Below, one piece after another: positions 20,863 through 60,267 of a stretch of DNA of 64,000 nt. The stretch is from Acytostelium subglobosum LB1 (lineage: Eukaryota > Evosea > Eumycetozoa > Acytosteliales > Acytosteliaceae), in the NCBI RefSeq assembly GCF_000787575.1, contig NW_012236509.1, positions 471,076 through 535,075 of the forward strand. Direction: 5' to 3'. Numbering within the stretch: the first letter of the stretch is position 1; each line of letters starts with the position of its first letter. Position numbers and translations under genes: made by a program. Below the pieces are notes generated by a model. It searched no databases. It saw only the letters and a program-made list of their open reading frames with translations, and was not told where the DNA came from.

Positions 20863-21405
20863 CGATGATGATGATAATGATCAAGGATGATGTCGACGGA
20901 TTGCGATGAAGATCTAAGATGATTGAACGAAATACACATGATCTTTCACTCTTTGTTCATAATCAATCAAATAATCGATTGACCAATGGAGAGGTGCGTG
21001 CCATGGCACACATGACAATCATATAAACGATCAGAGTTTGTGTGATCCGCACTGGAGTTCCGATTTGATTGTGAAAAAGTGACCAAATGAGGGCCTTTTT
21101 TGGTAAAACCTGGGGTGCCCTCTTGATCAAAAAATCACTGTGAGTCGATCATTTCCCTCATCTCGGCCCCGACATGTTCTCTTTTTCTCAGACTACGCAT
21201 GCTGTGCCGGTCGTGGCCCCTCCATAGGGAGTCATCGTGCTGGTGCGACGACCAACTCAACCAACTCAACTTAAGTTCACTTTGGCATAGTGCCATTTAA
21301 TTTATGCTCAAATTCTTGTACAATTCTCAAGTGTCGTCTGCTGGATGAGTGTGCAACAACTTTTGCTATAAATACTTCTGATCAGTGTTTAAGTTATTAC
21401 TCATT
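20863..21405. other. Upstream region of the first E2F gene, GC-rich and hairpin-forming
   Basis: About 540 bases. Past 21050 the composition is unusually G+C-rich for spacer DNA. An inverted pair GGTCGT (21209-21214) / ACGACC (21248-21253) encloses CTCC (21220-21223) / GGAG (21228-21231). A CCAAT box lies near 20981. It could be a regulatory region or hold an unrecognised RNA; I cannot tell which. Confidence 0.45.
21367..21374 (+). promoter_or_regulatory. TATA box of first E2F gene
   Basis: TATAAATA, 39 bases before the ATG at 21406. A start-proximal TATA element is usual in dictyostelid promoters. Confidence 0.55.
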
Positions 21406-23450: not shown

Positions 23451-24008
23451 GAGTGTGATGGCTAAAGCCACATTATCCATCACCTTCATCATTCTCGACC
23501 ACCACCTCATCAGAACAATCAACCACACATTTTTCAATCTGGCAAACGAAGGGCCAAACCCGACGAGAATTCATTCCCTCATTAACAACAAAGACAGTCT
23601 TGGTTGATTGATTGATGGTCGAGGGGGGATGAGTGGCCCATCCAACACGTCACTCCAATCAAATATTGATGATGTAAACCATCAACACTTCATACAGATG
23701 AATGGATGCTACAGGACTCTGCCAACCATCACCACCACCTTTGATCAAACATTGCAGTGCACTTCAATAAAGGCAACACACAAGTGTTGTTGCCTGTATG
23801 CACTAAGAATTATACATTGATTTCTATTTCAACCGTTTCAAAGAGCCCTCATTACTAAACATTAGTTTGTTAGATGGTCGAGTGAATAAACTTTGAACAT
23901 GTCCATTGATAATCACTCTATATCATTCATTCATTCACTCAATCATTCATACAATCGTTCATTCACTCATTCAATCTTAACAAACAACGTTCACTCTTTA
24001 AATATAAC

Positions 24009-25136
24009 ATGGATCCCAATAACAACAACAACATTAATATTAATAATGAAGATGGAAATATAGACCTCAACAACAACAATATCATCTCATATAATCATAC
24101 TTCGTTTGATTACTATACTAATAATATTAATAACTATAATAATACAATGTCTTATTTTAATGTAAATGATAATAATACCTACAATAATAATAATAATACT
24201 ATTAACATTAATAATATCAATCATCAATTACAATTGAACTTTGAGTCCATCAACTTGGATTTCATTTATAATCAACCTGAGATTCAATCACCTTCATCAT
24301 GGGCTTCATCTCCATCATCCTCTTCATCCTCAATAATATCGTCACCATTTGATTATGACCAAATGTCTCCGATCCAAATGACATCACCCGACACCTACGT
24401 TCAATCAACTTCACCAACTATAACTTCAACTACCAGTACCGCCATTAACAATCACCCTTATAAATACTACAATCAACATCCCCAACTACAACAACTACCA
24501 CAATCCGACAATCTACCGGTGTTCTTGGATGAGATGTCTCCTAGGCCTACCGCCAAACAACTTGGAAGCGACCCTTCAATGGCCGAGATCCAACCACCCA
24601 AACCCAGCCTATCATTGAGGAAGATGTCTGATACGTTGCTTGGAGAGTATCGAAATGCGCCGTCAGGGCAGTACGTTGACATCCGTAGGCTGGTCGAGAA
24701 GATTAAGGTGACCAAGAGACGTCTATACGAGATAATGAGCATTATGGAGTACTTTGGAGTGGTGCGAAAGGAAGTCCGTGACACGTATTACTGGACAGGA
24801 CTGAACAATATTGCCCAAGCAGTCCAGACCAAGGTATTTGATGCGCCACCAGACCAACAGCCACACAAGACATCGTTCACCAACCTATGCCATCGTCTTG
24901 TCTGCCTATTTGTGAGCAGACCAGTTCTCAGTATTGTTGATGCCAGGGATGAGCTTGGTCTTGGCTCCATGCCAGCACGTTGTAAACGACTCTATGATAT
25001 TGCCAACATCCTCGAGAGTCTCGGACTAATAGCCAAGTCTGTTAAAGTCGGTGGAAAACAACTATACATGTGGCAGGGGCCATTACCTCCAGCGTCAACC
25101 ACATCACCAGTGTCTGTGACCACGACACCTCTGTAA
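24009..25136 (+). CDS. Atypical E2F transcription factor with two winged-helix domains (copy 2)
   Basis: Single exon of 375 residues, tandem paralogue of the gene at 21406. The N-terminal 190 residues are mainly Asn plus Ser/Pro patches; the same (S/M)SP and TSP patches as in copy 1 remain visible. First winged helix about 198-262: QYVDIRRLVEKIKVTKRRLYEIMSIMEYFGVVRKEVRDTYYW. Second about 277-358: SIVDARDELGLGSMPARCKRLYDIANILESLGLI and a final MWQG. The first domains of the two copies are near-identical across the recognition helix (VTKRR.YEIM..ME.FGVVRKEVRDTY.W), whereas the second domains and N-termini have diverged. The same orientation and no gene between them indicate a local duplication. 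Confidence 0.85.
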   Translation: MDPNNNNNININNEDGNIDLNNNNIISYNHTSFDYYTNNINNYNNTMSYFNVNDNNTYNNNNNTININNINHQLQLNFESINLDFIYNQPEIQSPSSWASSPSSSSSSIISSPFDYDQMSPIQMTSPDTYVQSTSPTITSTTSTAINNHPYKYYNQHPQLQQLPQSDNLPVFLDEMSPRPTAKQLGSDPSMAEIQPPKPSLSLRKMSDTLLGEYRNAPSGQYVDIRRLVEKIKVTKRRLYEIMSIMEYFGVVRKEVRDTYYWTGLNNIAQAVQTKVFDAPPDQQPHKTSFTNLCHRLVCLFVSRPVLSIVDARDELGLGSMPARCKRLYDIANILESLGLIAKSVKVGGKQLYMWQGPLPPASTTSPVSVTTTPL

Positions 25137-27486: not shown

Positions 27487-30400
27487 CTATGGTGCAGTTA
27501 GTTTGACCCATCCTATTGGTACAACGAATGAATGAATGAGTTAGAATGATTGGAGATGATGACAACGATGTTGAAGATTGATATGACTTACCAGAGTTGG
27601 CAATGATATTCCTGTTGGTTGAACCAGGCTGTGGCAATGATAGACAATAGGTGCCATTGCTGTCAAAGACATTGTCATTCATGGTTACACCAGGTGCAAA
27701 TAGGCCATCGGGTGACGTGCCATATAAACAGTAGTCACCAGAATCCACGTCTTCAAACTTGTAGTATCCAGATGTACGAGAGTGTTCCATGACAAAGTTC
27801 TTGCCTCTAAGCAACTTTATCATAATATTATATGTACTTGACTTCTTGTTAAGTACACCATCGTTGGTTTTATCATTCCACAAGTATACTTCGATACTGA
27901 ATGTCGTGTTGCTAACCATTGCTACTCGGTTGATTGATTGATTGATTAGGGTTTGATGTACATATGCTGAGCTCAATGATTAATTGATACTTACCAAGGT
28001 GTGCATTGGTGTTTGATGGAGGTACAGTGGTGCAATAACTGTCTGTGTCTTTGTTGAACACGTTGTCATTCATTGTGACACTGTGTTGGAATCCAGCCTT
28101 GGAGGCAAAGATGCAGTACTGTCCTGAGGGGATACCAGTGAAGGCGTAGGAGCCATTGGCTAGATCAATGGTATTGACCACTGAGCCATCACCCTTCTTG
28201 AGTACCATGCGAACACCGTTCAGAAGTGCCTTGGTGTCCAGAATGCCCAGTTTGTTATCTCTGTCGTCCCATATCTGGCCACTCAATGTCTAGGTGGGTA
28301 TCTTCATCATTGCAAAGTTGGCCGCGGTGTTTGATGGAGGCAATGTTGTGCAGTACTTGCCATTCTCAAAGACATTGTCATTCTTGAAGAAACCTGGAAG
28401 ATATCCATCCTTTGTGCCAACGATGCAGTATTGCCCAGGCTTGAGATCGTCAAACAAATACGCTCCTTTCACGACATTGTCAAGACCGACCATCGAGCCA
28501 TTGGGGTATTGTAGCTCCATTCGTACATATGTCAGCAGGTTGTTGGTGTCAATCCTGCCCTGTTGTCCCTGACTGTCGTCCCAAACAATGCCAGCCAATT
28601 GATACCTGGGCGCAAGCTTCATACCAAAGTGTGCAGCAGTGTTGGATGGAGGTATGGCAAAGCAATACTTTCCAGTGGCATCAAACACGTTGTCACCAAA
28701 GTGATTGATAGGGATGTAGGTGTCATTAGGGTACCGTCCAAATATACAATAGTTGCCACGGGGTATCGTGAATGAGTACGATCCAGTCACATTGTCCAAC
28801 AGGTGTATGCTATCACCATATTGATTTTGAAGATCAATAGTTGCTCCATTCAGCAGATTGGCCATGTTGAGCCTGCCATCATTGTTGACATCATTGAACA
28901 CGTTTCCTTGGATTGTAAGCGTCTCAGCGGCGATCATTCCAATGTTGGCATTGTCCTCGTTGGGTGGGAGGGTCGTGCAGAACTTGCCATTGTTGAACTT
29001 GTTGTCATTCATGAATGGACCGGGGATGTAGCTTCCATTGGGATATGATGCGACGATGCAATATTCACCAGCTCTCAGATCATCGAATGTATAAGTTGCA
29101 AAGGTATTCTTCTTGGATATGTATATGCTGCCATCACTATACAAATCCAGTTGAACATCGTACAGTAATGACTTCTTGTCCATCACTCCATCATTGTTCT
29201 TATCAATGAACATATATCCACCAATACGGAATGTCTCATTGCCAACCATTGCTATAATTTGTTGATTGATTGATCGGGTGGGTCAGTGATTGATTGATTG
29301 ATTGAATGATTGAGTGATGGAGGGTCAGTGTTTGACTATCTTACCAAAGTGAGCATTGGCGATGGATGGAGGGACGGTCGTGCAGTATTTTCCATCAGAG
29401 TAATATACGCTGTACTGGCCTGGGACACTTGGCTTGAATCCTCTCTTTGATCCAAAGATGCAGTATTGACCTGGCAACAAATCATCAAAGGTGTAGGTGA
29501 TGTTGGCGTTGGTGATGGTGCTGATCACAGTTCCATTTGGATACCTGAGTTGCATCTGAACATTCCTGAGAGGTTTGTCCAAATAGGCTGGCTCGGAGCT
29601 GTCCGCTCAGTTGGTATGTGGTTCCCTTGTCAAGTCCAAGGTTGGCGGCAGTGTTTGATGGAGGAACCTTGGTACAGAACTTGCCATTGACAAACACGTT
29701 GTCAGCCTGCTTTGTAGGACTGGGTGTGTATCTTGCATCGGGGTAAGTGGCCACAATACAATATTGTCCACGGTTGAGGTTGGCGAATGAGTAGCTTCCT
29801 TGTGTGTTGCTGAGATGTGATCACTCCACCGACATTGTCCTGTAGTTCCAGGTTCACGCCCTTGACCAAGTCATTAGGGTCCATTACTCCATTGTTCTTG
29901 TCATTGAATGTCATGCCCTGTAGTGTGTACTTCTCATCCTTGATCATGGCTGTGATTGGGGGGTGATTCGGTTAGTGATTGACCAGCGGTGAGCTAGTGA
30001 TCGTGTTCCAACAAGTACTTACAGCAATATGCCTTGGAGTTTGATGGTGGGATGTCGGTGCAGAACCTGCCAGTATTGTCGTATACATTGTCTCGGATGG
30101 CAAAGCCTGGGAGATAGTTGGACTTGGTTGCCACAACACAGTATCGACCTTGGAGTAGATTGACAAATGAGTATACTCCTGTTTGTGAAGAGTATACTGT
30201 GCCAGTCTTTGTGCCATTGGCGAATTGGATCTCCATCGCAGCGCCCTCAATTGGCTTGTTTGAATCGAACACTCCTGCGTTGTCTAGAGTGTCGTCCCAA
30301 ACAATTCCTTCGAGTACATATGTTGGAGCCTTCTTCATACCAAAGTGAGCCGATAGGTTGTTGGGAGGCACTTGAGTACAGAACTTGCCGTTGGTAAACA

Positions 30401-32531
30401 CGTTGTCGCCAATGTGATCACCTGATATGTATGTACCATCGGGATAGCGTCCGACAATACAATAGGTGCCTTGAGGTACGGCGAATGAGTATGATCCTGT
30501 AACATTCTCCAACGTTTGAATATTCGTGCCAATGTCTGTTTGAGGCTCAATGGTCGCTCCATTCAACAAGTTTGCCGTGTTGAGCACGCCATCATTGTTG
30601 ACATCATAGAATACGCTGCCTTGGATCGTGTATGTTTGAGCGAGCACCATTCCAAAGTCGGCATTGTCTTCGTTGGGTGGGATACTCGTGCAGAACTTGC
30701 CATTGTTGAACTTGTTGTCATTCTTACCAGGGATGTAGCTGCCATTGGGGTATGATCCCACGATACAATACTCTCCAGCTCTAAGGTCCTCGAATGTATA
30801 CGTTGCAAAGGTGTTCTCCTTGGTGATATACAAGTTACCCTTGCCATTGAACAACTGCATACGAGCATCATGCAACCTTGTCATTAACTCCATCACCGTT
30901 CTTATCAATGAACAAGTATCCTCCAATACGGAATGTCTGATTGGCTACCATGGCTGTTGATAGGTGGGTTGGATAATGGATAGGGATTAGTTAGATACTG
31001 GAATGATTCCAAGTATGTGGGGGTTGACTTACCAAAGTGGGCATTTGGGATTGATGGTGGAGCTGTTGTGCAGAACTTGCCATCTGTGGAGAATACGTTG
31101 TCTTTGGCCTTGGCGCCAGGTGCGTATCCTAACTTGGAGCCAAAGATACAGTATTATCCAGCAAGGAGATTGGTCCATTCAAGAAAGATGATGGACCAAC
31201 ATGGATACAGTACTCGCCATTGTTGAACACGTTGTCATTGTGGCGTATACCTGGAGCGTACTTGCCAGTTGGGTCTGATCCATAGACACAGTATGATGCA
31301 GACTAGAGGTTGTTGAATGAATATGTGCCATTGGCAGGATCAATCACACTGATCGTATGTCCATTGAAATCCTTGAGTACCATCCTCATTCCACCAAGTA
31401 ACCTAGAAGTATTAAGTATTCCTTGCTTATCTCTGGTATCATCCCAAATATATCCTTGGATGGAGAACCTAGGTACCTTCACCATGGCTAGTGTTGGTGT
31501 TGGGGGTTGGGGGGGTAGGGTTGAGTTAGTACTCTGATTGGGATAGTTCCGGTCGATCAATCAGGGACTTACCAAAGTATGCATCAGTGTGTGATGGACC
31601 AAGGGCGGTGCAGAATCTACCAAACATGTCGAATACATTGTCATTCCTGTTAATACCCGGAACGTAGGAGTTGTTTGGATAGGATCCAACGACGCAATAT
31701 TGGCCAGATGGTAGGTTGTTGAAAGAGTAGGTACCATTCGCTTGTTCAATGACTTTCAACTGATTGCCGCTGTTGTCTTGGAGTACCATTCTCACGCCAT
31801 TGAGTAAGTTTGATTTGTTAAGAATACCCTGGTTACCAATTGTATCATCCCAAATATATCCTTGAATGATAAAGAACTTGATGGGAGGCCGACTAGTAAG
31901 AGGCGGAGTAACAGGAGGAGGAGTTGGGGGTTCAGTGGGAGGCTCAGTTGGCGGTTCAGTGGGAGGTTCGGTGGGAGGCTCAGTGGGGGGTTCGGTGGGA
32001 GGCTCAGTGGGCGGCTCAGTTGGCGGCTCAGTTGGTGGCGGAGTAGGGTCAGATGGAGGCTCGGTTGGAGGCTGGGTAGGGGGAGGTGTTGTGGTTGTTG
32101 ATGACATTGATGTGGTGGATGAAGTAGTAGTCGTGACACCACCTGTTGTAGTCAATGTTGAGGATGTTGTCATATTGCCAGTGAATGTCGAGGAGGAGGT
32201 CGATAGAGAGACTGGAACACATCTTGGTTCACCATTGACGACTTGACATGCAAGGTTTGGTGGACATTGAAGAAATCTACATTTATCCAAACAAGTTGGT
32301 GGCAAACAATGTTCCTCGCCACAACATACTTGATGATCTGGGCAATATATATCTCCACATAGTTCTAAAAAGGTATTAATAATAATATTGAATTAGTCTT
32401 TGTTAAATTCAATCATTCATCATCCATCTATAAATCATACTCTTCTTGTTGATGTTGGTGGAAGATGATGCTGTTAAACAACAACTACAACAAAATAATA
32501 AAAGTAGAAAGAGAGGAATAATCCCTCTCAT
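27487..32531 (-). pseudogene. Decayed SdrD_B-repeat (colossin-like) secreted protein gene
   Basis: Exon-like blocks on the minus strand: 32531-32441, 32364-31573, 31487-31033, 30953-30023, 29949-29345, 29251-27995, 27921-27592 and 27512-27487, all joined by phase-1 introns. The start encodes a clear signal peptide (MRGIIPLFLLLLFCC). A Cys-rich CTDC-like module follows (LCGDIYCPDHQVCCG, CPPNLACQV), then a Ser/Thr stretch, a PPTE tandem repeat and about 13 SdrD_B repeats. The frame is broken several times: TAG at 31305-31303 and TAA at 31156-31154, both where other repeats have Gln in GQYC; a deletion with frame change at about 31165-31195; frame changes at about 30885, 29820 and 29580; and TAG at 28292-28290 where a Tyr is expected. 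Neighbouring genes mostly lack such lesions, so decay is more likely than sequencing error, which cannot be excluded. Confidence 0.75.
31915..32075 (-). repeat. 12-bp tandem repeat encoding Pro-Pro-Thr-Glu
   Basis: The + strand shows degenerate GGCTCAGTGGGC-like units about 12 bases long, coding PPTE repeats on the minus strand between the Cys-rich head and the SdrD_B repeats. It probably forms an extended, O-glycosylated stalk. Confidence 0.85.
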
Positions 32532-33601: not shown

Positions 33602-36600
33602 TAGTTTAAATCATTTAGCGAACAGATATCAAGTATCGATATAAATATATTCAATAAGGTTGGAGATGTTGTTATTGAGTTGGAGGAGGATGAGGAACAG
33701 AGTGACTCGTATTTTCACAAGACGATGGTGGCATGGCGCGAGCTCAACTTGACGATGCATTTTGAGCAGTTTCAAATCGAGTTGAGGAAGTGTCCAGTGA
33801 CGCTGGCCGAAGTGCTGCTGCACAAGGAGCATCTGGTCGATGTGATCACTAGACATATGGCCATTGCCGGTACCATGGCACTCCAGCCACTGCTCGGTCT
33901 GCTGACGGCTTTGTCACGCGATCTCCGCTCCGAGTTCTTTGAGCACTTCTATGCTCCCGTGCTCCAAACCATGATCACAATGCTGCAACGTCCTCAACCG
34001 ACACCAGAGGTCATCAGTGAGTTGTTCACATCACTATGCTACCTCTTCAAGTTCCTCGAGCGTCAAATATGCAAGGACTTTATCCGCTTCTATGAGTAAG
34101 TCCATGGTCCATGGTCTTGGCGCGACATGGCGAATGTGTTGTCTAACGCGCGACACTCACTAACTCACTCAATCACTTGACACTTAATGTAGCATATACT
34201 CAGAGTTGTTTAGACTTAGGAAGAAATACCTTAGGAGGTTCGCTGCAGAGTCGATGGCATTCCTTCTGCGAAAGATACAATATGAGCAGCTGCAGCAGTC
34301 GTTGACGGCGATGTTCCAGCGTGCAGAGACTCACTACAGCTCGAATGAGTATTGCGACGCATTCTCATACCTGCTGTTCCAATCGATCAAGGGTGTCAAG
34401 GGCAAGTTCCACTCGAGAGCCGAGCACACTCTGCCGCTGACCTTCCGCGCAGTCGACGCTAGTCGCGAGTCAGCCGTCGTTGCCGCACACCGCATACTAG
34501 TGCCATTCTTCCAACTCATACTAAGACATGCAGTTAACGAGGGCGATAACATGGATGCGATCTGGGCGACACTCATTGGCGAGTCCGACTTCCTGGCCAA
34601 ACAACTCGAGGCCAAACAATGGCCCGCATTCATCTCCAAGCAGTACAAGACATTCTTTACAATCATCCAGTCGTTCATCAAGTTTAGGCGTGGAGCTAAC
34701 ATCAAGGGTAAGTTGTCCGAGATGCCAGTGCACGCCCTCCTCACTCACGCCATTCAATCACACAGACTACGGCGATGTAATCAACATACTTGGCCGCGTA
34801 CTTAATACCAAGACATACAAGAGCATTATTGCCAAGCAGTCGTTTGATATTGAGGCCATCACTTTGACAATGTCTAGCTTGCTGCCTCATACATACTTTG
34901 CGCGATTCAAGGAGCAGAGGGACGCTTTCACAACGCTGGTCGACGTGCTCTTTGCCCTGTCGGACCAATCGTCGCAGTCCAACATCATCTCGTTCTGTCT
35001 GTCGATGGAGCGTCACCAGCTGTTCGAGTCATTCATCATCACTCGTCTGCTAAAGTACGTCGAGCGCAACATGGAGAAGCTGGACTGGGAGCAAGTACTC
35101 TCGTTCCTCGTACGCCTGGTGGCCCTTGATCCGACCAGCCAGGATGGCCTGCACCCCATCCGCGAGTACCCCACGCTCAAGTCCACGCCACAGTTGTCTG
35201 CCAAGGTCAAGAGTGTCCTTGGCTCGGCCGACGTCGACAACTCAATGCTTTGGGCATGTCTGGTGCTGGCCGTATCGCTCGAGTTCCAAGACGCCACAAT
35301 CTTGGCCACCCTGGAGAAGGTGTTTGAGCGTGTGAGCGCGGCACACAACAAGGCCGCTGTCGGAGGCAAGACCGCCATTGACGAGACCACCTATCTCGTA
35401 GGCCAATGTTTGATCACCCGAGTGATCCTGACCTCCCGTCTCGCACCCAAGACACTCATCTCACTCAGTCCCGTGGTGTTTGCCCTGCTCGAGAAGCTGC
35501 CAAACAACTACCACGTACTCAACGCTTCGGCCATCTATCTGGAGACGCTTCTTGAGAAGGGATCCGCATCCACAACCATTCAAAAATCATCATCATCAGT
35601 AGCCGGCAGCAAGAAGAAGGCTTCCGCCGCAGCACCAACAGCATCAGCCACAGCAACAGCCACAGCCACAATCACACCATTGGTATCATATGACCAATTC
35701 CTCAAGTTATTGCCATTGTTTAGCAATAACCTTTCGCATCAATCGACGTCCATTCGAAGGACGACGGTATCAATGTTGGTCGGCCTCCACAAGGCCACAC
35801 AGGCATCATCCGAAAGTGATGTAAGTTATCTTCAACTTGCCCTCAATCACTCCAATCACGCACTCACACTCATCCATCAATTAATCTATCAATCAGGTCG
35901 ACATTCAAAGAATGCTCCAGTACATGTTGGAGATTGAGACAACTCAGTATCATACTATAGAGGGACGCGATGTAGTGTCCAAGATGGACGCGTTGACAGT
36001 GCTGCACACATCGGGCAAGACCAATGTGCTGAGCCAACACTTTTACAACTACTTGCTCGGTGGTTACTACATCCGTTACACACCACTTTGGACTGCCATC
36101 CAGAATGCCATCGTCCAAGTGTGCAAGTCCCAGGACAAGGTCAAGGTGTTCTACCCGCTGCTCTACCAGCGTCTCCAGGACGTCAATCAACAGCTTCAAG
36201 AGATGAAGTGCGCCACACCCATGGACATCGACACACCAGGCAATCATGCTCATGAATATGAGCTCACTGGCGAGGAGTTGAATGAGGAGGATGTTGACAC
36301 AGTTGAGGACACACATGAGGTAGAGGACGAGCAGGACGACGAGGAAGAGGCACAGGACGAGGAGGACGACGACACATTCCACTTGGACCTCTCGAGCTTG
36401 AAGACCACTGTGGTGTACGGCGAGGTGCAGCAGTTGGCCAAGGGCACGTTCAACGCAGACTTGGGTGTGCGCAATATTATTCGATCATCAACAGACCTCT
36501 CATCATACAACGAGCTGATCTGGAAGACTTATGCTCGTCTGGGCCATTTGATCGAGCATTACAGCAAGGAGATCATTGTCCAGTTCCTCGAGTTCATCGC

Positions 36601-39600
36601 CATCGACTATCACAGGTTCTCGGCGGTCTTTGCCCGCCCGTTCGACGCATCTCTCGGTGCGCTGACCGACTCAACGCGTGCCCAGCTCATCTTTGCCAAG
36701 TTCGAAGCAAACAAGCTGCTAACCTACTTCCTCGAGTTCTTTGCTCAGCTCAAGAAGCCCGCGCAGATGCATCGCGCACCTATGATGGCCGCAATCTTTG
36801 TGCGCACGCTCGAGATTGAGGACTCCAAGATTCAGTTGGCCGGTCTCGCCTGCATGTTGTTGTCGCGAATTGAGCTGCAACCATACCGCAAGAACTTTGA
36901 GCGATTGATCAATGACAAGACGATGCGCGAGGAGATGGTCAACTTTGTGATCTCGGCATCGTCGCCATCATGTAGCGTGCCAGCTGACAATCGCGCCAGT
37001 ATCGTAGAGCTCATCATCAAGATCCTGCTGTCCAAGCTTAACAAGAAGGCCAGCGGCAACCGCACCACCATCGACGCACAGCGCACCACAATCTTTGCCT
37101 ATCTCTCGGGTCTCCAATCAGCCGAGATCACGCCCATTTGGCAGCGTGTCTCCTCCGCCTTCTCCAAGTTCCTTCAGATGCTACCCGTCAAGAAGGGCAG
37201 TTCCAGCGCGCTGCTCACGTCCATCAACCAGTACACACCCGCGCTTCTCGATGCGCTGCCACAGACCGACTCACAGGTGAACTTCCTCAATGTGGTGCAC
37301 CCGTTCATCAGACAGATGGGCACTCTGTTGCTGGGCGCCAATCTGGACGCAATCATGCATATCTTGTTGGCCATCGCCATCAAGTCATGCCAATCAATGG
37401 GCAACAAGGGATACGCCAGCGCCAAGGCCAACGAACTTCGCTCAATCTCATTCAAGCGCATCTCTGGAATCATCGAGCAGTTCAGTGGCGTTGATCACAA
37501 CACACACCTGAAGGTACTGTTCCAGGTGTTTGCCCAGATGTGGCCTGCGATCCAGGCACATGGCATCTCGTTGGGCATGAAGCAGGTGATGCTGATTGTG
37601 TCCAAGAACCCACTCCTGGTCCATCACCTCGCGACCGACCCCACGCTGCTACCCAAGCTCATCTCCTTTGTCACATTCCAGCCAATGCAATCCGATGTGA
37701 TGATGCTGATTGAGAACTTGCTGCTGGGCGCCGATGAGCACGAGCAGTACATGGCCGTGCTGCAGCCCCTGGTCACGCCCATCATCACCTCGGTCAAGGC
37801 CGTGCTGTACAAGAAGCAAGGCGCATCACTCCATTCAATCTCGCGTCGTCAACTTGTCGTCCTGGCTGAGGTCTCCAAGTATGCTCGTGCCGGCGACCAA
37901 TCTGCCGAGCTACTCGAGCTGCTGCTGCCTTTCTTCACCGCCGGCTCGTCCACGGTCACCAAGCTCAAGAGCGACCCGGGTCTTGTGATGTCCATCCTCA
38001 CAATCTTTAGGAACTTGGTCGAGCACATTTCCGACCCCGCCAGCCACGTGCCCGCGCTCTCTTCACTCTTTGCCAGCTTTGTGACTCGCGAGACCCGTGA
38101 GCTGCTGTGCCAGATCTTCACGGGTATTGGCCGCAAGGTGCCATCCATTGGCAAGATCGCCACACTCCTGGCCGACCTCAATGCATTCAAGCAGGACACC
38201 GTGCGTTTGGATGCTTACGAGTTTGAGCCGCGTCTCAAGGCTTTCGAGAAGCTCACACCATTGCTTGGTCAGTACGATCAGATTCAGTTGGCGCCAATCC
38301 TCAACAATATGATGTTCTACCTCTTGGACGCAGACTACTCGATCCGCGGATGTGCCGCCAACGCCTTCTCCAAGCTCATAGCGGCGATGTCATCGTACAG
38401 CCCCGAGCAGCTGGACTGGACCTGCCGCCTTCTCCACGAGATCTTTGTCCCAGCAGTCAAGCGCAACCTCATGGAGCCTGGCGATGCCAGGACTGAGATG
38501 CTCAACCTCTTCAACAAGCTGGCGGCCAAGTTCCCACTTCACTTCTTTGGCGACGTCGAATGTTTGATGGGCGACAAGGGATTCCTTGCACTCTACACCA
38601 ATATCCAGTCGTCCAAGCGCAGGTCTTCGTTCACAATCCTGCGTCAGAATATCCAGGAGCACAAGGACACGATGAAGGCACCATCCATCACTCAGTTGAT
38701 CCTGCCCCTTTGTCTGGCCGCCATTCTCGAGACTTCAAACAAGGAGACTGCCTACCTAGGTGAGATTGCCAAGGCCATTGGTGAGATGGCAGCCATCTTA
38801 GAGTGGCGCCCATACTACCAGATGGTGCGCACGCTACATCGCACCATGGCCAAGCATCCCCTCAAGGGCAAGTTCATGCTGCGTGCCCTGTGCGAGGTGT
38901 TGGACAAGTTCCACTTCTTCGTCAATCAAACAGACATTGCACCAGAGATGGTCGAGTCAGTCAAGGGCAAGAAGGCCCAGATCTCATTCGTCCCTGCCGA
39001 CATGGAGGAGGACACGACTCGCGAGTTGGATGACGACGAGGCTGCCGTGGCCTCTGCAGCCGCCGCCTCAACAGACCCCAAGGACGCGCAAGATGATGAG
39101 GAAAACAAGGCGGACAGGTTACAGATTCAGGCTTTGGACATTGCCACGACCAAGATGGTGGTGCATGTAGCCCAGCGAGTCAAGGTGCGCAACGTCAGCG
39201 AGGAGATACATCAGGCGATCATTTACGTATTGGTGCCAGAGTTGGAGAAGTTCTTGTTCTCCTCAAAGAAGAGAAAGGATCCCAATGCACCAGCCAAGCC
39301 AATGGCAATCGATGGCAAGTCAAAGAGCAAGGACAAGGCGGACAGGGACACAATGGTCGACATCACCGTGGCCGTAGCCATATTCAAGCTGTACAATCTG
39401 TTGCCAGAGGAGTCCACGCGCTCGCTCTACCCACCACTCATTGGCAAGCTGGCCAACGAGCTCAAGAGCAAGGTGGTCGAGTCGCGTGAGATGGCCCGTC
39501 AAACACTGGTCAAGGTACAGGGCATCCTTGGCGTGCGCTACTTCCCCTTTATGCTGCACGACCTCAAGTTTGTGCTCAAGAGCGGTTACCAGAAGCATGT

Positions 39601-42412
39601 GCTCGTGTTCACACTCCACGCGCTGCTGTTGCAGCTGGAGAAGGATGGCGTGCAGCCCGGCGAGATCGACAAGCAGGCACCACTGGTCATGGACATCATC
39701 ATCGACTACCTCTTCCTGGACATCACCATTCCCAAGGACTCCCGATTCCAAGACTCGTTCATGGAGGCACGCCAACCACGTGTGCTCAGCGCGCTCAAGG
39801 TGTTGGTCAAGCTGATCACATCGACCAGCATCACCAAGGTTGTGTTGCAGCCTATTGAGGACGTGCTCCAAGATTCAACCTCGCCCAAGCTAGTATCCAA
39901 CGTGAGCAAGATGCTCAAGAAGATCGCCAAGGCAGTGTTGCGCAACAAGTCATCAACTGATCGCGACCTCCTCATCCTGTGCTTCAACATGTTCAAGCGT
40001 GGCACTCATCGTCGCGACGACGTGCCAGAGAACAAGCGCAACCCCAACCTCAAGCCCACGTACGAGGAGACGTTCACAATCCAGGCCGACCCCAGGAAGG
40101 CCAAGGCCGAGCGCGTCAAGAGTCTCAGCTACAACTCATTCGTCTACACTGACTTTGCCCTGCAGCTCATGTTCAACGTGATGAGCAAGTCTGACACGGA
40201 GGTGCGTCCACTCATCCCCATGCTGGACCCACTCGTGCCCAGTCTGATCGCCACACTCAATGACAAGCATCCAAAGATCGCCTTCCACTCGATCAAGTGT
40301 TTAAACAGACTTCTCCACCTCGAGCTGCCCTCGCTGCGTCCACAACTTGCCAGCGTCACAGTGACCATCCTCAAGCGTCTCCAACAAGACGCTGGCAATG
40401 AGAAGGTCTCATCCGTGTGCTACAGCACCATCATCCAGATCATCAAGGATCCAGCCAACAAACTTCTCAACGATGCTCAGCTCAAGGCCATCCTCATCCT
40501 CACCAAGCAGTACTTCACCGGCAACGATATGAAGCAGACGCGAGCCATCAAGATGCTCCATGTATGTACATGGAACTTTTCAATCAATCAATCAAACATA
40601 CTAATCAATCAATCAATCCAATCAAATCAGGTGATCATTGAGAGGAAGGTGATGCTACAAGAGGTGTACGAACTGATTGACCTGTCCAGCAACATGTTGA
40701 TCAGGACACAGAAGAATTTTATCAAGAAGGCCCTGTCTGATCTGATGATAGACTTCCTGTTGCATTATCCAATGGGCGAACAACGTTTGAAGCAGCACTT
40801 GACGTTCTTCATCAAGAACATGGCGTACGAGGCAGAAGAAGGCCGTTTGGCCGTGCTCAAGATGCTCGTTAGGATAGTCGATCAGTTCCCACAAGAAGTG
40901 CTCAACACCTATGCCCAGCTCCTATTCGTCCCATTGATCGCACGTCTAGCCAACGACACATCACTTCCATGTCGCCAAGAAGTTGGCAACGTGCTGTTGA
41001 TGCTGCTCAAGGGTGTGTCCAACCAAGTGTCCAAGAAGCTGATCGAGCTCACATTGGCATGGTTTGGCAAGGGAGACAATGTGCCAATGTCAAAGACAGC
41101 GGCTCAAGTCCTAGGCCTGGCCTCAGAGGCTATTACCAACTTCCATACATTCTTTGATCAAGTAATGCCCCTTGCAATCGGACATCTCAAGCAAGGTTTG
41201 GAGCAACTTAGACGCCTCGAACAGACATCACAGATATTCGAGGAGATTGGTGGAGACGACGAGGCGACCAAGTCATCCAGCGCACTCACTGGCTGGGCAC
41301 TGTACTACAATATCATGTTGATGGTTGAGAAGATGTTCCCTGTTCACGCTGCCGCCATGAATGCGAGCGACAAGTTTGTTCTTTTCTGGCCCGTGGCCAT
41401 CGAGTACCTCAACTACCCTCATGTCTGGGTTAGAACATCAGTCACCAGACTGTTTGGCCAATACTTCAACACACAGAAGTTGGACGGTGTCAAGGACATT
41501 GTACAGGGCACGTCACAGAAGAAACAGAAGCAGACGGTCCAGACCACGATCTTCAACCCAACCACATTGTTCCAGATCACCAAGAAGACCTGTTCGCTAC
41601 TGAACAGCAGGTTCCTGACCGATGACCTAGGTCTCCAGGTGACCAAGAACCTCCTCTACCTCTCAAACGTCTTCTTCAAGTGCCAAAGTATCAGGCCCAT
41701 GGAGGATGCTGAGGAGGATATCCAAGACATTGCAGAGGAGAATGGCGAGGCCATTGTCAACGGTGATGGTGATGAAGGTGAAGAGCAAGATGACAATGTT
41801 TGGGGATTCAACGGCGACACAGAGATGGAGGAGAGCAGTAATACCAATGGCAAGACCACTAGCTCAACCCCGACAAAGACCAAGTCAACAGAGACCCAAC
41901 AACAGGGCGAGGAGTATCCAATGCTCCTGTGGATGTTCAAGAGACTGTCGTACATGGCATCCAAATTTGGTACAATGCGTAGGAAGTACGTATTCAGATG
42001 GGTCGGCGCAGTTGCCAACCAGCTGCCAGAGAAGTCCATGTCACAGTACCTCAGCATCGTCTTGTACCCACTGTACAAGTCATCCGAAGCCAAGTACAAC
42101 CCGACCAAGGAGCTCAAGGACCTTTCAATGGAGGTGCTCAACATGATCAAAAAGAAGGTTGGTGCGCCAACATTCTCCCTGGCATTCCGCGAGATTGAAG
42201 GTGCCATCTTTAAGAAGCGTGCACTGAGGAAGCAGGAGGAGAAGCTATTGGCGGTGTCCGATCCAAAGGAGCATGCCATCAGGAAGGCTGAGAAGAGGAA
42301 GCAGCGTACCCAGTCCAAGAAACGCAAGCAAACAGACTACACAGAGATCACTGATGATCGTATGTTAATCAAGGTACCCAGGAGAGTTCTTGAAGAGTCA
42401 ATTGATGACTAA
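33358..42412 (+). CDS. utp20: UTP20, small-subunit processome HEAT-repeat scaffold
   Basis: Six exons: 33358-33504, 33605-34095, 34193-34707, 34766-35820, 35897-40561 and 40631-42412, about 2884 residues (human UTP20 about 2785). The protein is alpha-helical HEAT-like repeats throughout, with family blocks such as FKSFSEQISSIDINIFNKVG near the start, LCYLFKFLERQICKDFIRFYE, a long acidic insert (EDVDTVEDTHEVEDEQDDEE) at about residue 850, and FVYTDFALQLMFNVM. A Lys/Arg-rich tail (RKAEKRKQRTQSKKRKQ) ends the chain. UTP20 is part of the 90S/SSU processome, binds U3-associated pre-rRNA and is needed for 18S maturation in the nucleolus. The acidic inserts (about 36270-36370, 39000-39110 and 41700-41850) are lineage-typical. 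AATAAA follows at 42420. Confidence 0.93.
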
Positions 42413-43312: not shown

Positions 43313-46300
43313 CTATGAGAAAGCACGGCCATAACCACCTTGAGAAAAGAATGCCACTGCCAACATTAATCCACCAATCAGTAGCCATGGTAACAAGGGA
43401 CGGTCATCCTTGACCATCAATGACTCGAATGGTGCATCCAACTCTTGGTTCTTAGCTGTAGAGTAGGGATGTACATGTTGGAAGTTTGTTAATGAATGTT
43501 CGTCAATCATTCAATCATTCAATCAATTACTTACCCATTAGTGCACCTTCACCACCCTGGTATACATCAACCACTGCGTTGTTGACAAAGTACTTGTTGT
43601 GGCGCAGTTTTGTCACCGTTTGTTGAGCTGGATTCTTTAGGTTCTTGATGACATCCATGATCATACGCTCAATTACTGCTTCATCATGATTGTTGTCAGT
43701 TGATTCCGAATCTGAATGGTCGTGAGCCACTGGTGCTGCTGCTGCCGCTGCGTTAAGTCCATTGATTGTCAACTCCTTCTGACGTAGTTGATCTTCCAAA
43801 GCACTTATTCTCTCTTGTAATGAGGCCTGAGTGGCTGCCGCCTCCTTCTTCTCCTCTTGATTCTTCTTGTTCTTCTTGATCAACTCTTGAAGTTGGTCGA
43901 ATGATTGACCCAACGACTTCCACTGCTTGTCCGTGTTGGTCAGCTGGTCTTGTTGCTTGGTGCGCTCATTGAGGTCATTCTCCAACTTGTAGTACTTTTG
44001 TGTCAAAGTCTTCAACTTGTCCAAGGCATCAGTCAGTGTTTTGTTGGCAGCTGCATCCTTCTCCTTAGCTGCTGATTGCTTGTCATCAGACTCTTTGGTC
44101 AGACGTTGTATCTCGCTGTGGCTCGATTGTTTGAGTGCAGCCAGCTCCTTCTCCAGTCTCTCCTTCTCCTGGGCCATGTCTTTGGACGAGGCCTGTAGTT
44201 GTTCAAGATTCTTGGCTCCATCCTTGTTTGCATTGCCCAGTTGCTGTCTCAGATCATTGACCTCGGACTGCAACTTCTCAATACTCTTTTGCAAATCCTT
44301 CTTCTCCTGATCATTCTGCTGTTGTTTCTCGCTCTGGCTCTGATGTGCAGACTCGCGCAACAATCTCAATTGCTCCTGGGTCTTGCTGGACTCATCCTCT
44401 GCCTTCTTCCTCTGTTCGTCCAATGCAGCAATCTGTTTGGCCTTCTCCTCCAGATCATTGTTGGCATTGGACACCTGCTCCTCCAGCTTCTTGATTGTCT
44501 GTCCGTCACCCTGAGCATTGTTTGCCAACTGAGACTTAACTGCGTCCAACTGATCCTGCAACGACTTCCTATCATCCAGAGCACGGTCAATGTCTGCCAG
44601 GGTCTTGTCATGTTGGGCTTGCAGTGTAGACAATGCATCCTCCACCAACTTGAGCTTGGCCATCTCATCCTTGACGTGATTCAACTCACTGATCAACTTA
44701 TCCCTCTCCTCCTTGGCGCGAGTCTCACGCTCCTGGTACTCCTTCTCCAACTGGCTGGCACTTTGTTGACTTTGCTGCAGATTGTTCTCTACGTCCTTGA
44801 ACTTGTCGACCTCACCCCTGATACTGGCCAGCTCATCAATCAACTTGTTCTTTTCACTGTTTGATTGATCGTGTGCCTCGGAGATCTTGCTGTGACTACC
44901 CTTCAACTCTGCCAGTTCACGCTTGAGTGCGTCCAACTCGTCGATCAATCTCTGTCTCTCTTGTGTGGATGAGTTGGAATTTGATTCATTCATCTTGTTC
45001 TTCTCCTCAATCTCTTTGTTCAACTTGGAGCACTGCTCTTTGGCGTCGGCCAGCTCTGCGGCCAAACGATCACGTTCCTCCTTTAGTTGTCCTGCTTGAT
45101 TATCCATCATTTGTACACGCTCGCGCTGCTCATCCAACTGCTTTGACAGGTCTTGGTGCTCGCCCTCTTTGCCAACCTTGAGCTCCTGGCACTCTTGCTT
45201 GGACTTGTCCAGCTGGCCTAACAGATCTGTTTTATCACCATCCAATGCCTTGATTTGGACATCCTTGGCCTCGATCAAACTCATCAGCTCTTGAATTTTA
45301 GTTTGTAGATCGTTGCCTTGACTTGCTGTGCCACGCTCCAACTCTTCCAGCTTCTGCTTCAAACCATCCTTCTCAGCTTGGGCAGCCTGCATATCCCTGT
45401 CCTTTGCCTGAAGATCATTCTTGAGTCCGTCAGTCTCAGCTTGGGCAGCGAGGATGTCCTTGTCCTTTGCTTGAAGTTCATTCTTGAGTCCGTCAGTCTC
45501 TGCCTGGGCAGCTACTATGTCCCTGTCCTTGGCCTCCAGGGAGTTCTTGAGTCCATCAGTCTCAGCCTGTGCCGCCAGAACATCCTTGTCTTTGGCTTGT
45601 AGTGCGTTCTTTAGGCCATCAGTCTCGGATTGGGCGGCCAGAATGTCCTTGTCCTTGGCCAACAGAGCGTTCTTGAGCTCCTCAATACGGTCGCGGTTGT
45701 CTGTCTCAACGTTGTCCTTTAGTCGGGTGACCTGGGCCAACTGCTCTTTGTTTCGTGTGATCTCCTCCGCCAAGTGAGACTCCTTCTCGCCTACCTGTTT
45801 CTCCAGTTCACCAATGCGCTCCTTGAGTACAATGACCAGCGTGTTGCATTGGCACTTCTCTTTGAAATCCTTGAGATTGGCCTCAAGCTCATCACGCATG
45901 TGATGGACCTCGTCCAACTTTACCGTGCTCTCACCATTGGCGCGTGTGAGTGATTCGATACGCTCTTGAAGACGGACCAGGGTCTCCTTGTTGCCAGCGA
46001 CCTTCTCGCGGAGCTGATCGACAAGCTCGTTGTTGCCACGTTGGTAGTCCTCCCACTGCCACGACACGTCGCCTGGTGCGTGCTCAATGTCGTTGAGAAT
46101 GTTGCCGAGCACCTTGTGAGTGTTGTTCTTTTCAAGGTCGCGCTCATGCTCTTGCTCGAGCAAACGTTGCTCCAAGGCCTTGATCTTGCGCTCGAGGTCC
46201 TCAACTTTGATACGCTGTTCCTCGTCCTCTGCTGCGTCCTGCTCCAGTTGTTGGCGTCTCAGCTTGTCGGCGGCCTCTGCTTCGCCCGCCTCACGAATTC

Positions 46301-47313
46301 TACGCTCCTCGTCTTCTTTAGCGCGCTTGGCTTCCTCCTCCTTGCGGACGCGCTCACCCTCCTCGCGCAACTTCTCCTGCAAGTTGTCGGTGCTCACGGA
46401 CATTGAGTCGCGGAACTGCACCTTTCCATTGCTGGGCGATGCAACTGGCACTGCAACAGAGAATCGTTTGTTGGCGGCGTTGGGGTCGTTGGCCTTCTGG
46501 TAGACACGTGGGAACAACGACACGTAGGTCATTATACTCTGCTCGTCGGGGTGCTCCAGCACCTCCTCGGGCTCGAGAATGGAGGGGATGTTGAGCTCGC
46601 GATGCGCCGTGTCAAAGGCCATCTTGAGGTTGAAGAGCGGGTCGTCCTGCTTGAGCTCCTCCATCTTGATTGCCTCTGGCACCAATCGATGAATTAGCGC
46701 ACAAAACACCGTGCCATCCTTGAAGCTCGTTGTGAAGTCGTTGATCTTTAGTGAGTAGCCATCGAGTTGCTCGCGTGTCCAGTTGAGCAGCGACTCTTTG
46801 GAACCACCCTGCGCGCCAGCCTTGGACGGCGTGCCATCCTTGCCCGCGCCAAGTGACAAGGTCTGGATTTGGTAACATTTGATCAGAGTCCAAATTAGAC
46901 CCATGATCATCTTTAGATCACCATCCACGATGTTCTCGCCACTTAGTCCAACCAGTTTGATGCCCTCGTCCGTGATGAACTTTAGTGTGAAGTTGACATT
47001 GGTGACGAGATGTAGTCTACTCTTCATCTTTTGCATTTTGGACACCAATACATTCTTTCCACTCAATGTCTCCAACAAGTTTGCCAACTTGAATCCATCC
47101 TGGAAGTCTGTTTGCAACTCAGTCACAGTCAACTCTCTCAATGCCAAGTAAATATTACACCACTTTGTGAATACCTATCCATCATCCACCATCCATCATA
47201 CGAATTCGTTTGTTTGTTAGTTCCACACTCAATAGATGATGTGATGATTGATGACATACCTTCTTCTGTGCCAGAACCCAAGGTTCGAGCTTTTCAGGTT
47301 CCTTCTGCATCAT
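43313..47313 (-). CDS. abpD: Interaptin-like actin-binding protein: two CH domains, long coiled coil, tail anchor
   Basis: Exons 47313-47260, 47174-43535 and 43455-43313, about 1278 residues. N-terminal tandem calponin-homology domains: CH1 about 10-120 (EPWVLAQKKVFTKWCNIYL, TDFQDGFKLANLLETLSGK) and CH2 about 143-245 (LLNWTREQLDGYSLKINDF, FKDGTVFCALIHRLVP). These form an alpha-actinin-type F-actin-binding unit. Residues about 280-1170 are continuous coiled coil, including at least five copies of a 20-residue unit AQAETDGLKN.LQAKDKDIL near 45380-45680. The C-terminus has one membrane segment (PWLLIGGLMLAVAFF) and a short GGYGRAFS tail, so it is probably tail-anchored. This is the plan of Dictyostelium interaptin, which links actin to the nuclear envelope and ER. 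The symbol is transferred by architecture; the protein is shorter than D. discoideum interaptin. The start could also be Met2 (47310). Confidence 0.8.
45380..45690 (-). repeat. About 60-bp tandem repeats in interaptin-like coiled coil
   Basis: At least five near-identical units encode the motif AAQAETDGLKN.L.AKD(K/R)D. The high nucleotide identity suggests recent expansion by slippage or unequal crossing-over. The 20-residue period keeps charged positions aligned although it is not a multiple of the heptad. Confidence 0.85.
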
Positions 47314-57313: not shown

Positions 57314-60267
57314 ATGACAAAGTTTACTGCTGCTTATATGTATGTGATGATTGAATGAATGAATGAATGTTGACAGATGGCACAGGAACAGGAATTGAAT
57401 GACTGACTGACCGTTTGATTGAATGAATGAATATGATAACAACAGGAGCATGATGATTAAGTTGGCCAACTCAAGATTGGTATTGCATAAGAATAAGAAC
57501 CTTGAGATGGCCAATGCACACAAGAGAGAGGTTGCTGAATTACTGTCGTTGGGCAAGGAGGACCAGGCACGTGTAAAGGTCGTCACCGTAATCAATGAAG
57601 ACTATCAAACAGAGGTACTTGGTATACTACTAATCTACTGTGAGACATTGGGCAACAGAGTCAAAGGTCTGGAAGGTGTAAAGTATGTCTATCATCCATC
57701 CATCCATCCATCCATCCATCAATCTGATGATCTCTAACACAATCATCATTGTCATGAATAGAATATGCCCACCAGACATCAAGGAGGCTGTGTGTAGTAT
57801 CATATTCGCTGCGCCATATCTCGACAAGCAGGTCGAGTTGTACAAGATAAGGAAGAGATTGATCGAGAAGTTTGGAAAGAAGTTCCCAGAGGAGTGCATT
57901 GACTGTTGTTGTATAAATCCTAAAGTGAGTCTCATGGATATGTCCACAACCAGGCATGTGACCAACTAACTCGTCAACTTATAGATCCTCCACAGACTGT
58001 CGAACAAGCCACCAGAGGACTCATTGATCAACTATTACCTCGCCAACATTGCCAAGAAGCATAACGTTCAATGGGAGACACCCGTAAGTATCCTGGTGAT
58101 GCCAATCAATCGATCAATCAATCGAATGATACTGACACGATCATATGATCAGATGTTACCACCCTTGGTAGACCTACAACAGAGTATTCCAGAGTTTACA
58201 ATGTCGGCTTTGGCTGAGCAGCTGCCATCACCACCTCCTGTGCAGGAAGCTAGCACAGCTATATTGGACTTCCCATCGGTGCCATCGACCGATGTGAAAC
58301 TGGACTTCCCTGTCGTGCCCCAGTTCCCAACGATTGTTGAGAAGCAAGTGTGCGATGCCAGCCGCGTCGAATGCTTTGGACCGGGCCTCACGGGCGGCTT
58401 TGTTGGCGTCGAATCACTGTTCACCATTCAGGGCTATGACACCAAGGGCCAGAAGATGACCAGTGGCGGCGACACTTTCAACGTGCTCATCCAGGGTCAG
58501 TTTGGCGATCAGATCTACGGCAAGGTCAAGGACAATGGCAATGGATCGTACACTGGATCGTTCACACCACCAAAGGCGGGCGGCTACGCCATCGCCGTGT
58601 ACCTGGTCAACCAGCAGGTGGCAAAGAGTCCATTCTACCCCACCGTCGTGGACAATGAGCCTGTGACCGACCCCAACCAGGTTCAATGCTACGGAGACGG
58701 CCTCACAAGTGGTCGTCCAAAGATCCAATCGACCTTTACCATTCAGGCACGCGACTCCAAAGGCAACAACCGCAACAAGGGTGGCGATAAGTTCTACGCA
58801 TTCATCCAGGGTCCACCTGGCATCCAGATCCACGGCAATGTCGTGGACAACAACAACGGCACATACACCGTCACATACACCCCACCCAATGCAGGCGGCT
58901 ACGCTGTGGCAGTTTATCTCGACAAGGTCCAGTGCAAGAGTGGCCCATGGACATTCTTCATACTTGAAGAGGTCCAGGCTGAGGTACACATCGACAAGGA
59001 GGAGGACGAGCTTGACAAACTGTGGAAGGAGACCAGCAAGCTGTCCTTTGAGCCATCGACCGCCGTTCTCGAAGCCACCATGGATAACATCCCACCAGCA
59101 CCATCAGCCGCCGGCTTCAAGATGCCAAACATTGTGTCCAATGCCGAGTTCCTCCAGTCGATCACTGAGAAGACATTGGTCATTGACAATGGAAGTGGCG
59201 TCGTCAAGGCAGGATTCGCCGGCGAGGATAAGCCAAGATGTGTATTCCCATCGATCATTGGATACCCGCTGTTCAACAGCGTTATGAAGGGCATGGGCAA
59301 GGAGAAGTACATTGGTGACGAAGCACAGGCCAAGAGAGGTGTGCTGTCGATCAAGTACCCGATCGAGCATGGCATCGTCACGAACTGGGCCGACATGGAG
59401 ACACTCTGGGAGTACACCTTTATGAATGAGTTGCGCGTCGACCCATCCAAACACCCGGTGCTGCTCACCGAGGCCCCACTCAACCCTAAGGCCAACCGCG
59501 AGAAGATGCTCGAGATTATGTTTGAGAGCTTCCAAGTGCCCGCGCTCTACATTGCCATCCAGGCCGTGCTCTCGCTGTACGCCAGTGGCAGGACGACTGG
59601 CACCGTGCTGGACTGCGGTGATGGTGTGTGCCACACCGTGCCCATCTACGAAGGCTTCTGCATCAGCCACAACGTCAAGCGTCTGGACATTGGAGGACGC
59701 GACATCACCGAGTACATGATCCGTCTGCTGACTGAGCGTGGCTACGCATTCACCTCGACGGCCGAGCGCGAGATTGTTCGCGACATCAAGGAGAAGACAT
59801 CGTTTGTCGCACTCGACTTTGCCGATTCCATGCAGAAGGACGAAAACTCACTGCTGACACACTATACAATGCCCGACAAACAAGTGCTGTCCATTGGCAA
59901 CGAACGCTTCCGCTGCACGGAAGCACTGTTTGACCCTAGCCTGCTGGGCATGGATGTTAATGGCGTGCAGCACCTGCTGCACAACACCATCATGGGCTGT
60001 GACATTGACATTCGCAAGGACCTCTACTCCAACATTGTGATATCTGGTGGCTCCACCATGTCGCCAGGCTTTGAGCAACGTTTGGAGAAGGAGTTGAAAC
60101 ATCTGTCCACAATGCCCGTTAAGATATCGGCGCCAGCCGAGAGGAACTACAGTGTCTGGTGTGGTGGCTCTGTTCTGGGCGACCTCAAGAGCTTCCCTGG
60201 CCAATGGATAACAAAGCATGAGTATCAAGAGTATGGACGAAGCATTGTACACAAGAAGTGTTATTGA
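57314..60267 (+). CDS. fia: Filactin: IST1 domain, two filamin repeats and a complete actin domain
   Basis: Exons 57314-57339, 57446-57682, 57762-57924, 57985-58083 and 58153-60267, 879 residues. Residues 1-175 form an ESCRT-III-like IST1 domain ([66 protein letters not shown]). A proline-rich link follows. Two filamin Ig repeats lie at about 242-335 and 349-440 ([11 protein letters not shown]...[32 protein letters not shown]...[13 protein letters not shown]). Residues 515-879 are an actin fold: [16 protein letters not shown] phosphate loop, [31 protein letters not shown] and the C-terminal HKKCY. Dictyostelium filactin has this chimeric plan. IST1 regulates ESCRT-III/Vps4 and filamin repeats scaffold actin, so a link between membrane scission and actin is inferred. 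The 26-base first exon is inferred from splice signals. Confidence 0.9.
57690..57721 (+). repeat. (ATCC)n microsatellite in filactin intron 2
   Basis: About seven CATC/ATCC units inside the 79-base second intron. Confidence 0.9.

Follow-up and report, generated by a model that had tools for sequence, protein, structure and literature searches.

A gene in a 64,000-nucleotide stretch of the genome of Acytostelium subglobosum LB1 (contig NW_012236509.1, positions 471,076 to 535,075; hereafter the window) encodes an IST1 domain, two filamin repeats and a whole actin in a single chain, and is the orthologue of Dictyostelium filactin (Fia). Related IST1 domains are found on two further kinds of actin-linked chain, one continuing into talin-rod segments and an I/LWEQ domain, and the other into OB repeats and actin. 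These two chains, the filactin architecture in Pelomyxa and Entamoeba dispar, and the linker elements described below (MIM2-like FPSVP elements and a motif shared with the I/LWEQ class) are the new findings; the fusion itself was published in 2008, and its IST1 link in 2022 (reviewed in 2025). Filactin is proposed here, with slightly better than even confidence, to act as a tether or adaptor between actin and the endosomal sorting complex required for transport III (ESCRT-III) and its MIT-domain ATPases, through binding that is predicted.

The A. subglobosum gene as an orthologue of filactin

The domains read from the letters by an initial annotation were all recovered in profile searches. The full IST1 domain claimed there, which stood or fell with a profile match, is matched by the Pfam Ist1 profile over positions 3-164 of 164 with 150.5 bits, against a cut-off of 33.6, and the solved human IST1 was matched by residues 3-174 in a sequence search. 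Each filamin repeat separately exceeds the cut-off of 26.9, with 73.2 and 72.4 bits. The Pfam Actin profile covers residues 515-878 with 421 bits, and both the phosphate loop DNGSG (residues 520-524) and the terminal HKKCY (residues 875-879) are intact, as had been noted. The CH domain, which forms the N-terminal actin-binding region of filamin, gave no Pfam match in this protein at E 0.001. The spliced model and Pfam thus bear out the combination of IST1, two filamin repeats and actin in one gene (Table 1).

Table 1. Filactin and other features in the window (residues refer to the spliced filactin model)
Feature	Position	Strand	Residues	Details
Filactin gene	57314..60267	+		spliced model, 5 exons, 879 amino acids
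Filactin exons	57314-57339, 57446-57682, 57762-57924, 57985-58083, 58153-60267	+		last exon includes the stop
IST1 domain	57453..58071	+	12-171	exons 2-4; PF03398, E 5.3e-44; human IST1 structures, E 3e-25
Conserved linker segment after IST1	58156..58197	+	177-190	13/14 residues invariant in five dictyostelid filactins
MIM2-like element ILDFPSVP	58261..58284	+	212-219	pattern in 8/10 filactins listed
Second MIM2-like element KLDFPVVP	58297..58320	+	224-231	followed by QFP; pattern match
Filamin repeat 1	58351..58635	+	242-336	PF00630
Filamin repeat 2	58672..58965	+	~349-446	PF00630
D[DE][LMV][DE]x[LM]W-type element, linker 2	58999..59049	+	458-474	8/10 filactins, 4/4 I/LWEQ proteins
Actin domain	59170..60264	+	515-879	PF00022, E 4.7e-126; DNGSG loop 59185-59199; HKKCY end
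Open reading frame	21382-22950	+		E2F/DP-family domain
Open reading frame	23913-25133	+		E2F/DP-family domain
Open reading frame	28293-29282	-		SdrD_B-like domain
Open reading frame	29997-30944	-		SdrD_B-like domain
UTP20 domains	35885-42409	+		small-subunit processome; one open frame of 2175 amino acids
Open reading frame	43530-47174	-		1215 amino acids; two CH-domain stretches
63-base tandem repeat	45364-45677			inside the CH-domain frame

The four introns of the spliced model measure 106, 79, 60 and 69 bases and are all of the GT...AG type, the last of them (58084-58152) being the one that the initial annotation had proposed. The deposited LB1 protein (P0001, 868 amino acids) is letter-identical to residues 12-879 of the model and lacks the first 11 residues, contributed by exon 1. 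The product of this exon is backed by the near-identical start, MTKFTAANMSM, of the P. violaceum and D. purpureum proteins. Because the last intron is in frame and free of stops, and an open reading frame (58024-60267) spans it, a separate filamin-actin frame could begin upstream of or inside it. Even so, a merger of separate IST1 and filamin-actin genes by the gene prediction is very improbable and was rejected on comparative grounds: the same fusion recurs in at least nine further database proteins (P0003 and P0004 among them are imperfect models), which supports the status of the locus as one gene; one of these, Physarum P0008, bears a transcript name, and the P. violaceum protein is 65% identical across residues 1-515. 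D. discoideum filactin, moreover, is listed at 105 kDa, and rods were positive for it by antibody and mass spectrometry (PMC5225641). Nothing pointing to separate transcripts for the IST1 and filamin-actin parts was seen, RNA reads not having been available.

The protein as a whole is 69% identical to D. discoideum filactin (P0007), with which it shares the order of domains. With 82% identity, its IST1 domain is closer to that of the D. discoideum protein than to the other two IST1s of its own genome (34% and 31%), and in both actin-domain trees calculated the five dictyostelid filactins included form a group (support 100/99 and 99/99). P0007 carries the filactin peptide SIPHAIKRIDIGG and a 12-residue peptide, at 739 and 780, in agreement with the positions given in PMC2441452. 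The A. subglobosum protein is shorter (879 against 944 amino acids) and has two FPxVP elements, where that of D. discoideum has one.

Filactin was described in the actinome paper of 2008 (Joseph 2008, PMC2441452) as conventional actin preceded by a long extension at the N-terminus, was reported from Physarum in the genome paper of 2015, and is mentioned in a 2021 review of nuclear actin. The 2017 paper on cofilin-actin rods (PMC5225641) finds it in these rods, suggests a role in actin depolymerisation for the D. discoideum protein, and describes filactin as identified only in Dictyostelium. Its IST1-like domain was named in a study of spastin (PMC8932920, 2022), in which the two proteins co-localise at the mitotic spindle, and the link is discussed in a 2025 review (PMC11816917). 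The initial annotation was right that filactin is known in Dictyostelium (PMC2441452, PMC5225641, PMC8932920). Its view of the ESCRT link through IST1 as the least explored part is out of date, since the 2022 paper already has both the domain and the co-localisation in print. No paper bringing together filamin, an IST1 domain, actin and Vps4 was found in the literature search.

Related IST1 domains on three actin-linked architectures

Filactin is present in several amoebozoan groups. A homologue search with residues 1-515, in which the best 7996 candidates were scored, returned at least 24 proteins, and IST1, filamin and actin occur together in at least 10 proteins among the matches listed. 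These are the filactins of A. subglobosum, P. violaceum, T. lacteum, D. purpureum, D. discoideum, Physarum (by transcript name), Pelomyxa schiedti and Entamoeba dispar, and the EukProt models P0003, with part of the actin missing, and P0004, which is faulty and has a foreign end; these last two were left out of the filactin alignment (A3), which uses 8 of the 10. The P. schiedti protein (P0010) was deposited as a P-type ATPase, apparently a naming error. The passages of the filactin literature available make no mention of the Pelomyxa or Entamoeba proteins.

The second architecture carries a talin actin-binding module in the place where filactin has filamin and actin. It is represented by P0022 (Stereomyxa by its name line), in which talin-rod segments and then an I/LWEQ domain come after IST1. 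With this protein as query (best 7992 candidates scored), at least seven proteins were returned, and at least four among the matches listed share the arrangement: P0022, P0025, P0026 and P0027. Three of them are from EukProt and have transcript-assembly names; the fourth is from JGI contigs. When the IST1 portion of P0025 was searched against proteins of about 490 to 1560 residues, a length range that excludes stand-alone IST1s, 11 of 200 candidates were returned, among them the additional proteins P0030 and P0031. The IST1 domains of these proteins are 47-58% identical to those of dictyostelid and Physarum filactins and 30-43% identical to those of Pelomyxa and E. dispar; they have a DE[LV][DE]x[LM]W element in common with the filactins, and an additional MIM1-like stretch (MIM, MIT-interacting motif), DxLxxRLxAL. 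No report of a fusion of IST1 with LWEQ or talin was found in titles, abstracts and listings, and the words IST1, ESCRT and Stereomyxa are absent from the passages available of a 2025 paper on talin in Amoebozoa. An IST1-I/LWEQ gene was also sought in A. subglobosum itself and discarded: the IST1 matches lie on contigs C44 and C33, and the four strong I/LWEQ matches on C55, C48, C50 and C30.

The third architecture comes from metagenomes (P0030, the cluster of which represents 5 sequences on 4 contigs, and P0031). As in filactin, IST1 is N-terminal and actin C-terminal; cold-shock/OB-type repeats stand between them instead of filamin repeats, and neither of the two linker elements discussed below was found in the linkers. 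A viral origin of this gene was considered and rejected, the scan of viral contigs having given three pattern matches, none of them confirmed.

An alignment of 18 IST1 domains was used to place these proteins, 15 from fusions and three others (two from the A. subglobosum genome and one human). It includes nine of the ten filactins, P0004 being left out for its gapped IST1 and faulty end, and P0022 contributes only 107 residues. The IST1s of dictyostelid and Physarum filactins share 47-58% identity with the I/LWEQ and OB forms and 31-38% with the three other IST1s; the more divergent domains of Pelomyxa and E. dispar reach 37-45% and 30-38%, respectively, with the I/LWEQ and OB forms. In the tree, the 15 fusion domains are split from the three stand-alone ones with support 99/97, or 97/96 when Pelomyxa and E. 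dispar are removed. The fusion IST1s therefore group together rather than with the stand-alone IST1s of the same genome. As there are only three outgroup rows, and a dictyostelid-specific duplication of an ordinary IST1 is disfavoured but not formally rejected (best tree uniting dictyostelid filactins with the two other IST1s of the genome 11.7 log units worse; approximately unbiased test, p-AU 0.119), this is support for a single IST1 lineage, not proof.

The trees give no significantly supported branching order of the three fusion classes and no firm support for a single origin of the join between IST1 and actin. In the tree without Pelomyxa and E. dispar, the IST1s of filactin and of OB-actin come together with 81/91, which is not significant, the alternative grouping of filactin with the I/LWEQ form being only 0.8 log units worse (p-AU 0.452). 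Filactin IST1s do not form one group once the rows of Pelomyxa and E. dispar are included, nor do the I/LWEQ rows in the tree without them, and the actin-domain trees, which include 8 of the 10 filactins, place these on one side with only 59/88 and 79/83.

Linker elements and the actin domain

Human IST1, which is 33% identical to the A. subglobosum domain over the core (matched in its entirety), binds MIT domains through VLPELPSVP (MIM2) and DIDFDDLSRRFEELKK (MIM3) (PMC10586806), and its C-terminal element binds spastin (PMC9477494). The FPSVP of filactin resembles the end of the human MIM2 core 324-332 (PMC10586806), and is invariant across the five dictyostelid rows in a linker that is 42% invariant overall. 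The C-terminal MIM1/3 helix of the human protein is not found in filactin, where filamin and actin occupy its place; neither a strict nor a loose MIM1 pattern matched the A. subglobosum protein or its linkers. Across 16 proteins the strict pattern gave no match; matches to the looser one came from the four I/LWEQ proteins, P0022 having an additional one within IST1. A loose type-2 pattern also matched the linkers of two I/LWEQ proteins (P0025, P0026). The conserved segment directly behind IST1 stands out in an otherwise variable linker and is not retained in Physarum (24% over residues 177-193), and linker 1 gave no meaningful match in the PDB.

The first linker has FPSVP-like elements in 8 of 10 filactins, and the second linker of these eight contains D[DE][LM][DE]xLW, corresponding to the DE[LV][DE]x[LM]W of the four I/LWEQ proteins, and in none of 12 rows did any of 2000 shuffles reach the observed count. 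A narrower form of the pattern had given no match in D. discoideum, D. purpureum, P0003 or P0022, and one in the actin domain of P0030, after which it was widened and applied to linkers only; as the pattern overlaps, the scan counts each occurrence twice. In the Pelomyxa filactin, EDPLLARLNSIK lies near this place and looks MIM1-like by eye only, the pattern having failed to report it. By eye, too, the A. subglobosum element resembles the segment DDMEKIWHHT of the genome's conventional actin (L008), be it through chance, copying or mimicry. Taken together, the linker elements may bind MIT domains.

The actin domain is 64% identical to L008, which served as reference in a comparison of 8 of the 10 filactins (again without P0003 and P0004). 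The comparison covered chosen sets of nucleotide-site, D-loop (DNase I-binding loop), longitudinal, lateral and cleft positions. Of the 19 ATP-site residues chosen, 16 agree with L008 in the A. subglobosum domain, including D11, K18, Q137 and D154, with changes at positions 16, 306 and 336, so that the domain is likely to bind ATP; in the lateral contact set, 9 of 11 positions agree. The N-terminus of actin lies on the outer face of the filament, and N-terminally tagged actins enter filaments. The claim of the initial annotation that the 515 preceding residues keep this actin from being a normal filament subunit at its N-terminus is therefore too strong, and D. discoideum filactin is present in cofilin-actin rods (PMC5225641). 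The fused N-terminus alone does not bar filament entry; the actual differences from actin, judging by the aligned positions, are in the D-loop and some longitudinal contacts.

A proposed tether between ESCRT-III and actin and its alternatives

A direct coupling of membrane scission and cytoskeleton, already suggested in the initial annotation, is the most economical explanation of this chain. According to this proposal, the IST1 core would join or cap ESCRT-III polymers of the CHMP1 type where membrane holes, for example fenestrae of the nuclear envelope, are being closed, and AAA ATPases with MIT domains (spastin, Vps4) would be bound by the FPSVP and DELDxLW-type elements of the linkers. The filamin repeats would act as a spacer, and the putatively ATP-binding actin domain would enter or cap actin or cofilin-actin filaments, with the outcome that membrane scission and local actin would be held together. 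The completeness of all the domains in one chain supports the tether, as does the presence of D. discoideum filactin with spastin at the mitotic spindle (PMC8932920) and in nuclear cofilin-actin rods (PMC5225641). The invariance of FPSVP, its likeness to the human MIM2 and the largely retained ATP site of the actin domain also speak for it. The joining of a similar IST1 to a second actin-binding module, and to a second actin chimera, is what would be predicted if actin coupling were the conserved task.

In line with the tether, the A. subglobosum genome contains candidate partners. Counted as exon-by-exon matches, there are 12 for the Snf7 family, 15 for MIT and 10 for Vps4_C, and at three places (C27, C56, C28) MIT and Vps4_C matches share a strand and are no more than about 1.3 kb apart, as expected for putative Vps4- and spastin-type ATPases. 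Besides filactin, the genome has two further IST1 genes. The first (L007, G000:C44:547000-552500) has a MIM1-like tail, with the sequence DELTARFEALKR; its model ends in the MIM1-like DELTARFEALKRQNNMN, and its frame is interrupted within the Q/P-rich part by a single N of the assembly. The model of the other (L006, G000:C44:327500-332500) ends without such a tail.

Several observations weigh against the tether. ILDFPSVP and KLDFPVVP are both without the first proline of the MIM2 consensus (hydrophobic-P-x-hydrophobic-P-x-x-P), no such elements are present in the Pelomyxa and Entamoeba filactins (2 of 10), and the linker patterns were composed after inspection of the sequences; the observed count of FPSVP-like elements was reached by 0-72 of 2000 shuffles with the strict pattern and by 0-350 with the looser one. 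No partner is known for the DELDxLW-type motif, and when whole proteins are scanned its widened pattern also matches within the actin domains of P0030 and P0031, at a place where conventional actin reads DDMEKIW, so that the motif may instead be a copy of an actin segment. All five dictyostelid filactins compared have a D-loop one residue short of that of actin and a reduced 322-325 loop. In the A. subglobosum domain the positions kept as in conventional actin number 7 of 15 in the D-loop, 15 of 25 in the longitudinal set and 7 of 12 in the hydrophobic cleft, and because of these changes its polymerisation may be impaired. The actin domain of the E. dispar filactin keeps only 11 of 19 nucleotide-site residues. 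Finally, the spindle localisation of D. discoideum filactin does not include the poles (PMC8932920).

A rival explanation is a protein that is chiefly an actin variant, acting in actin turnover and nuclear rods, with IST1 as a passenger or localisation tag devoid of ESCRT-III function. The D. discoideum protein is a rod component with a suggested role in depolymerisation (PMC5225641), and ordinary IST1 work could be covered by the two other IST1 genes, one of them with its MIM1-like tail. Such a passenger would hardly be as strongly conserved as the actin, yet invariant positions in the five dictyostelids amount to 68% in IST1 and 63% in actin; IST1 is, besides, the part retained where the actin-linked module differs, and filactin has been seen with spastin (PMC8932920). 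This explanation is accordingly considered rather unlikely. Less probable again is a regulator that sequesters Vps4/CHMP1 and actin away from membranes, as a buffer or switch, and tethers nothing. The Pfam description of the family, as a regulator of Vps4 activity in the multivesicular body pathway, is in line with it, and since the type 2 element of human IST1, by itself, bound no more than 5 of the 11 MIT domains assayed (PMC9477494), filactin with its MIM2-like elements might bind weakly. The conservation of the spacer repeats in the ten filactins listed argues for the tether instead.

The remaining features in Table 1 lie elsewhere in the window, the two frames with E2F/DP-family domains being neighbours of each other. 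The frame with two CH-domain stretches, about 10 kb from filactin, likely encodes a further actin-binding protein.

To our knowledge, there is no simple molecular answer to whether and how ESCRT-III scission and actin are coordinated. Since filactin has both ends in one chain, and a similar IST1 recurs on a different actin-binding module, direct coupling can be tested in D. discoideum with the help of an existing antibody and a strain that lacks filactin (PMC5225641). It is the wider pattern, with similar IST1 domains across three actin-linked architectures, that lifts a known orthologue above the ordinary. A broader reading, held tentatively and at somewhat less than even confidence, is that of an amoebozoan IST1 paralogue dedicated to actin: a single lineage with at least three exchangeable actin-linked modules, in which MIT-binding elements were kept or regained in most linkers, forming an old physical coupler of ESCRT-III and actin. 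If this is true, Amoebozoa would own a dedicated, actin-coupled lineage of IST1.
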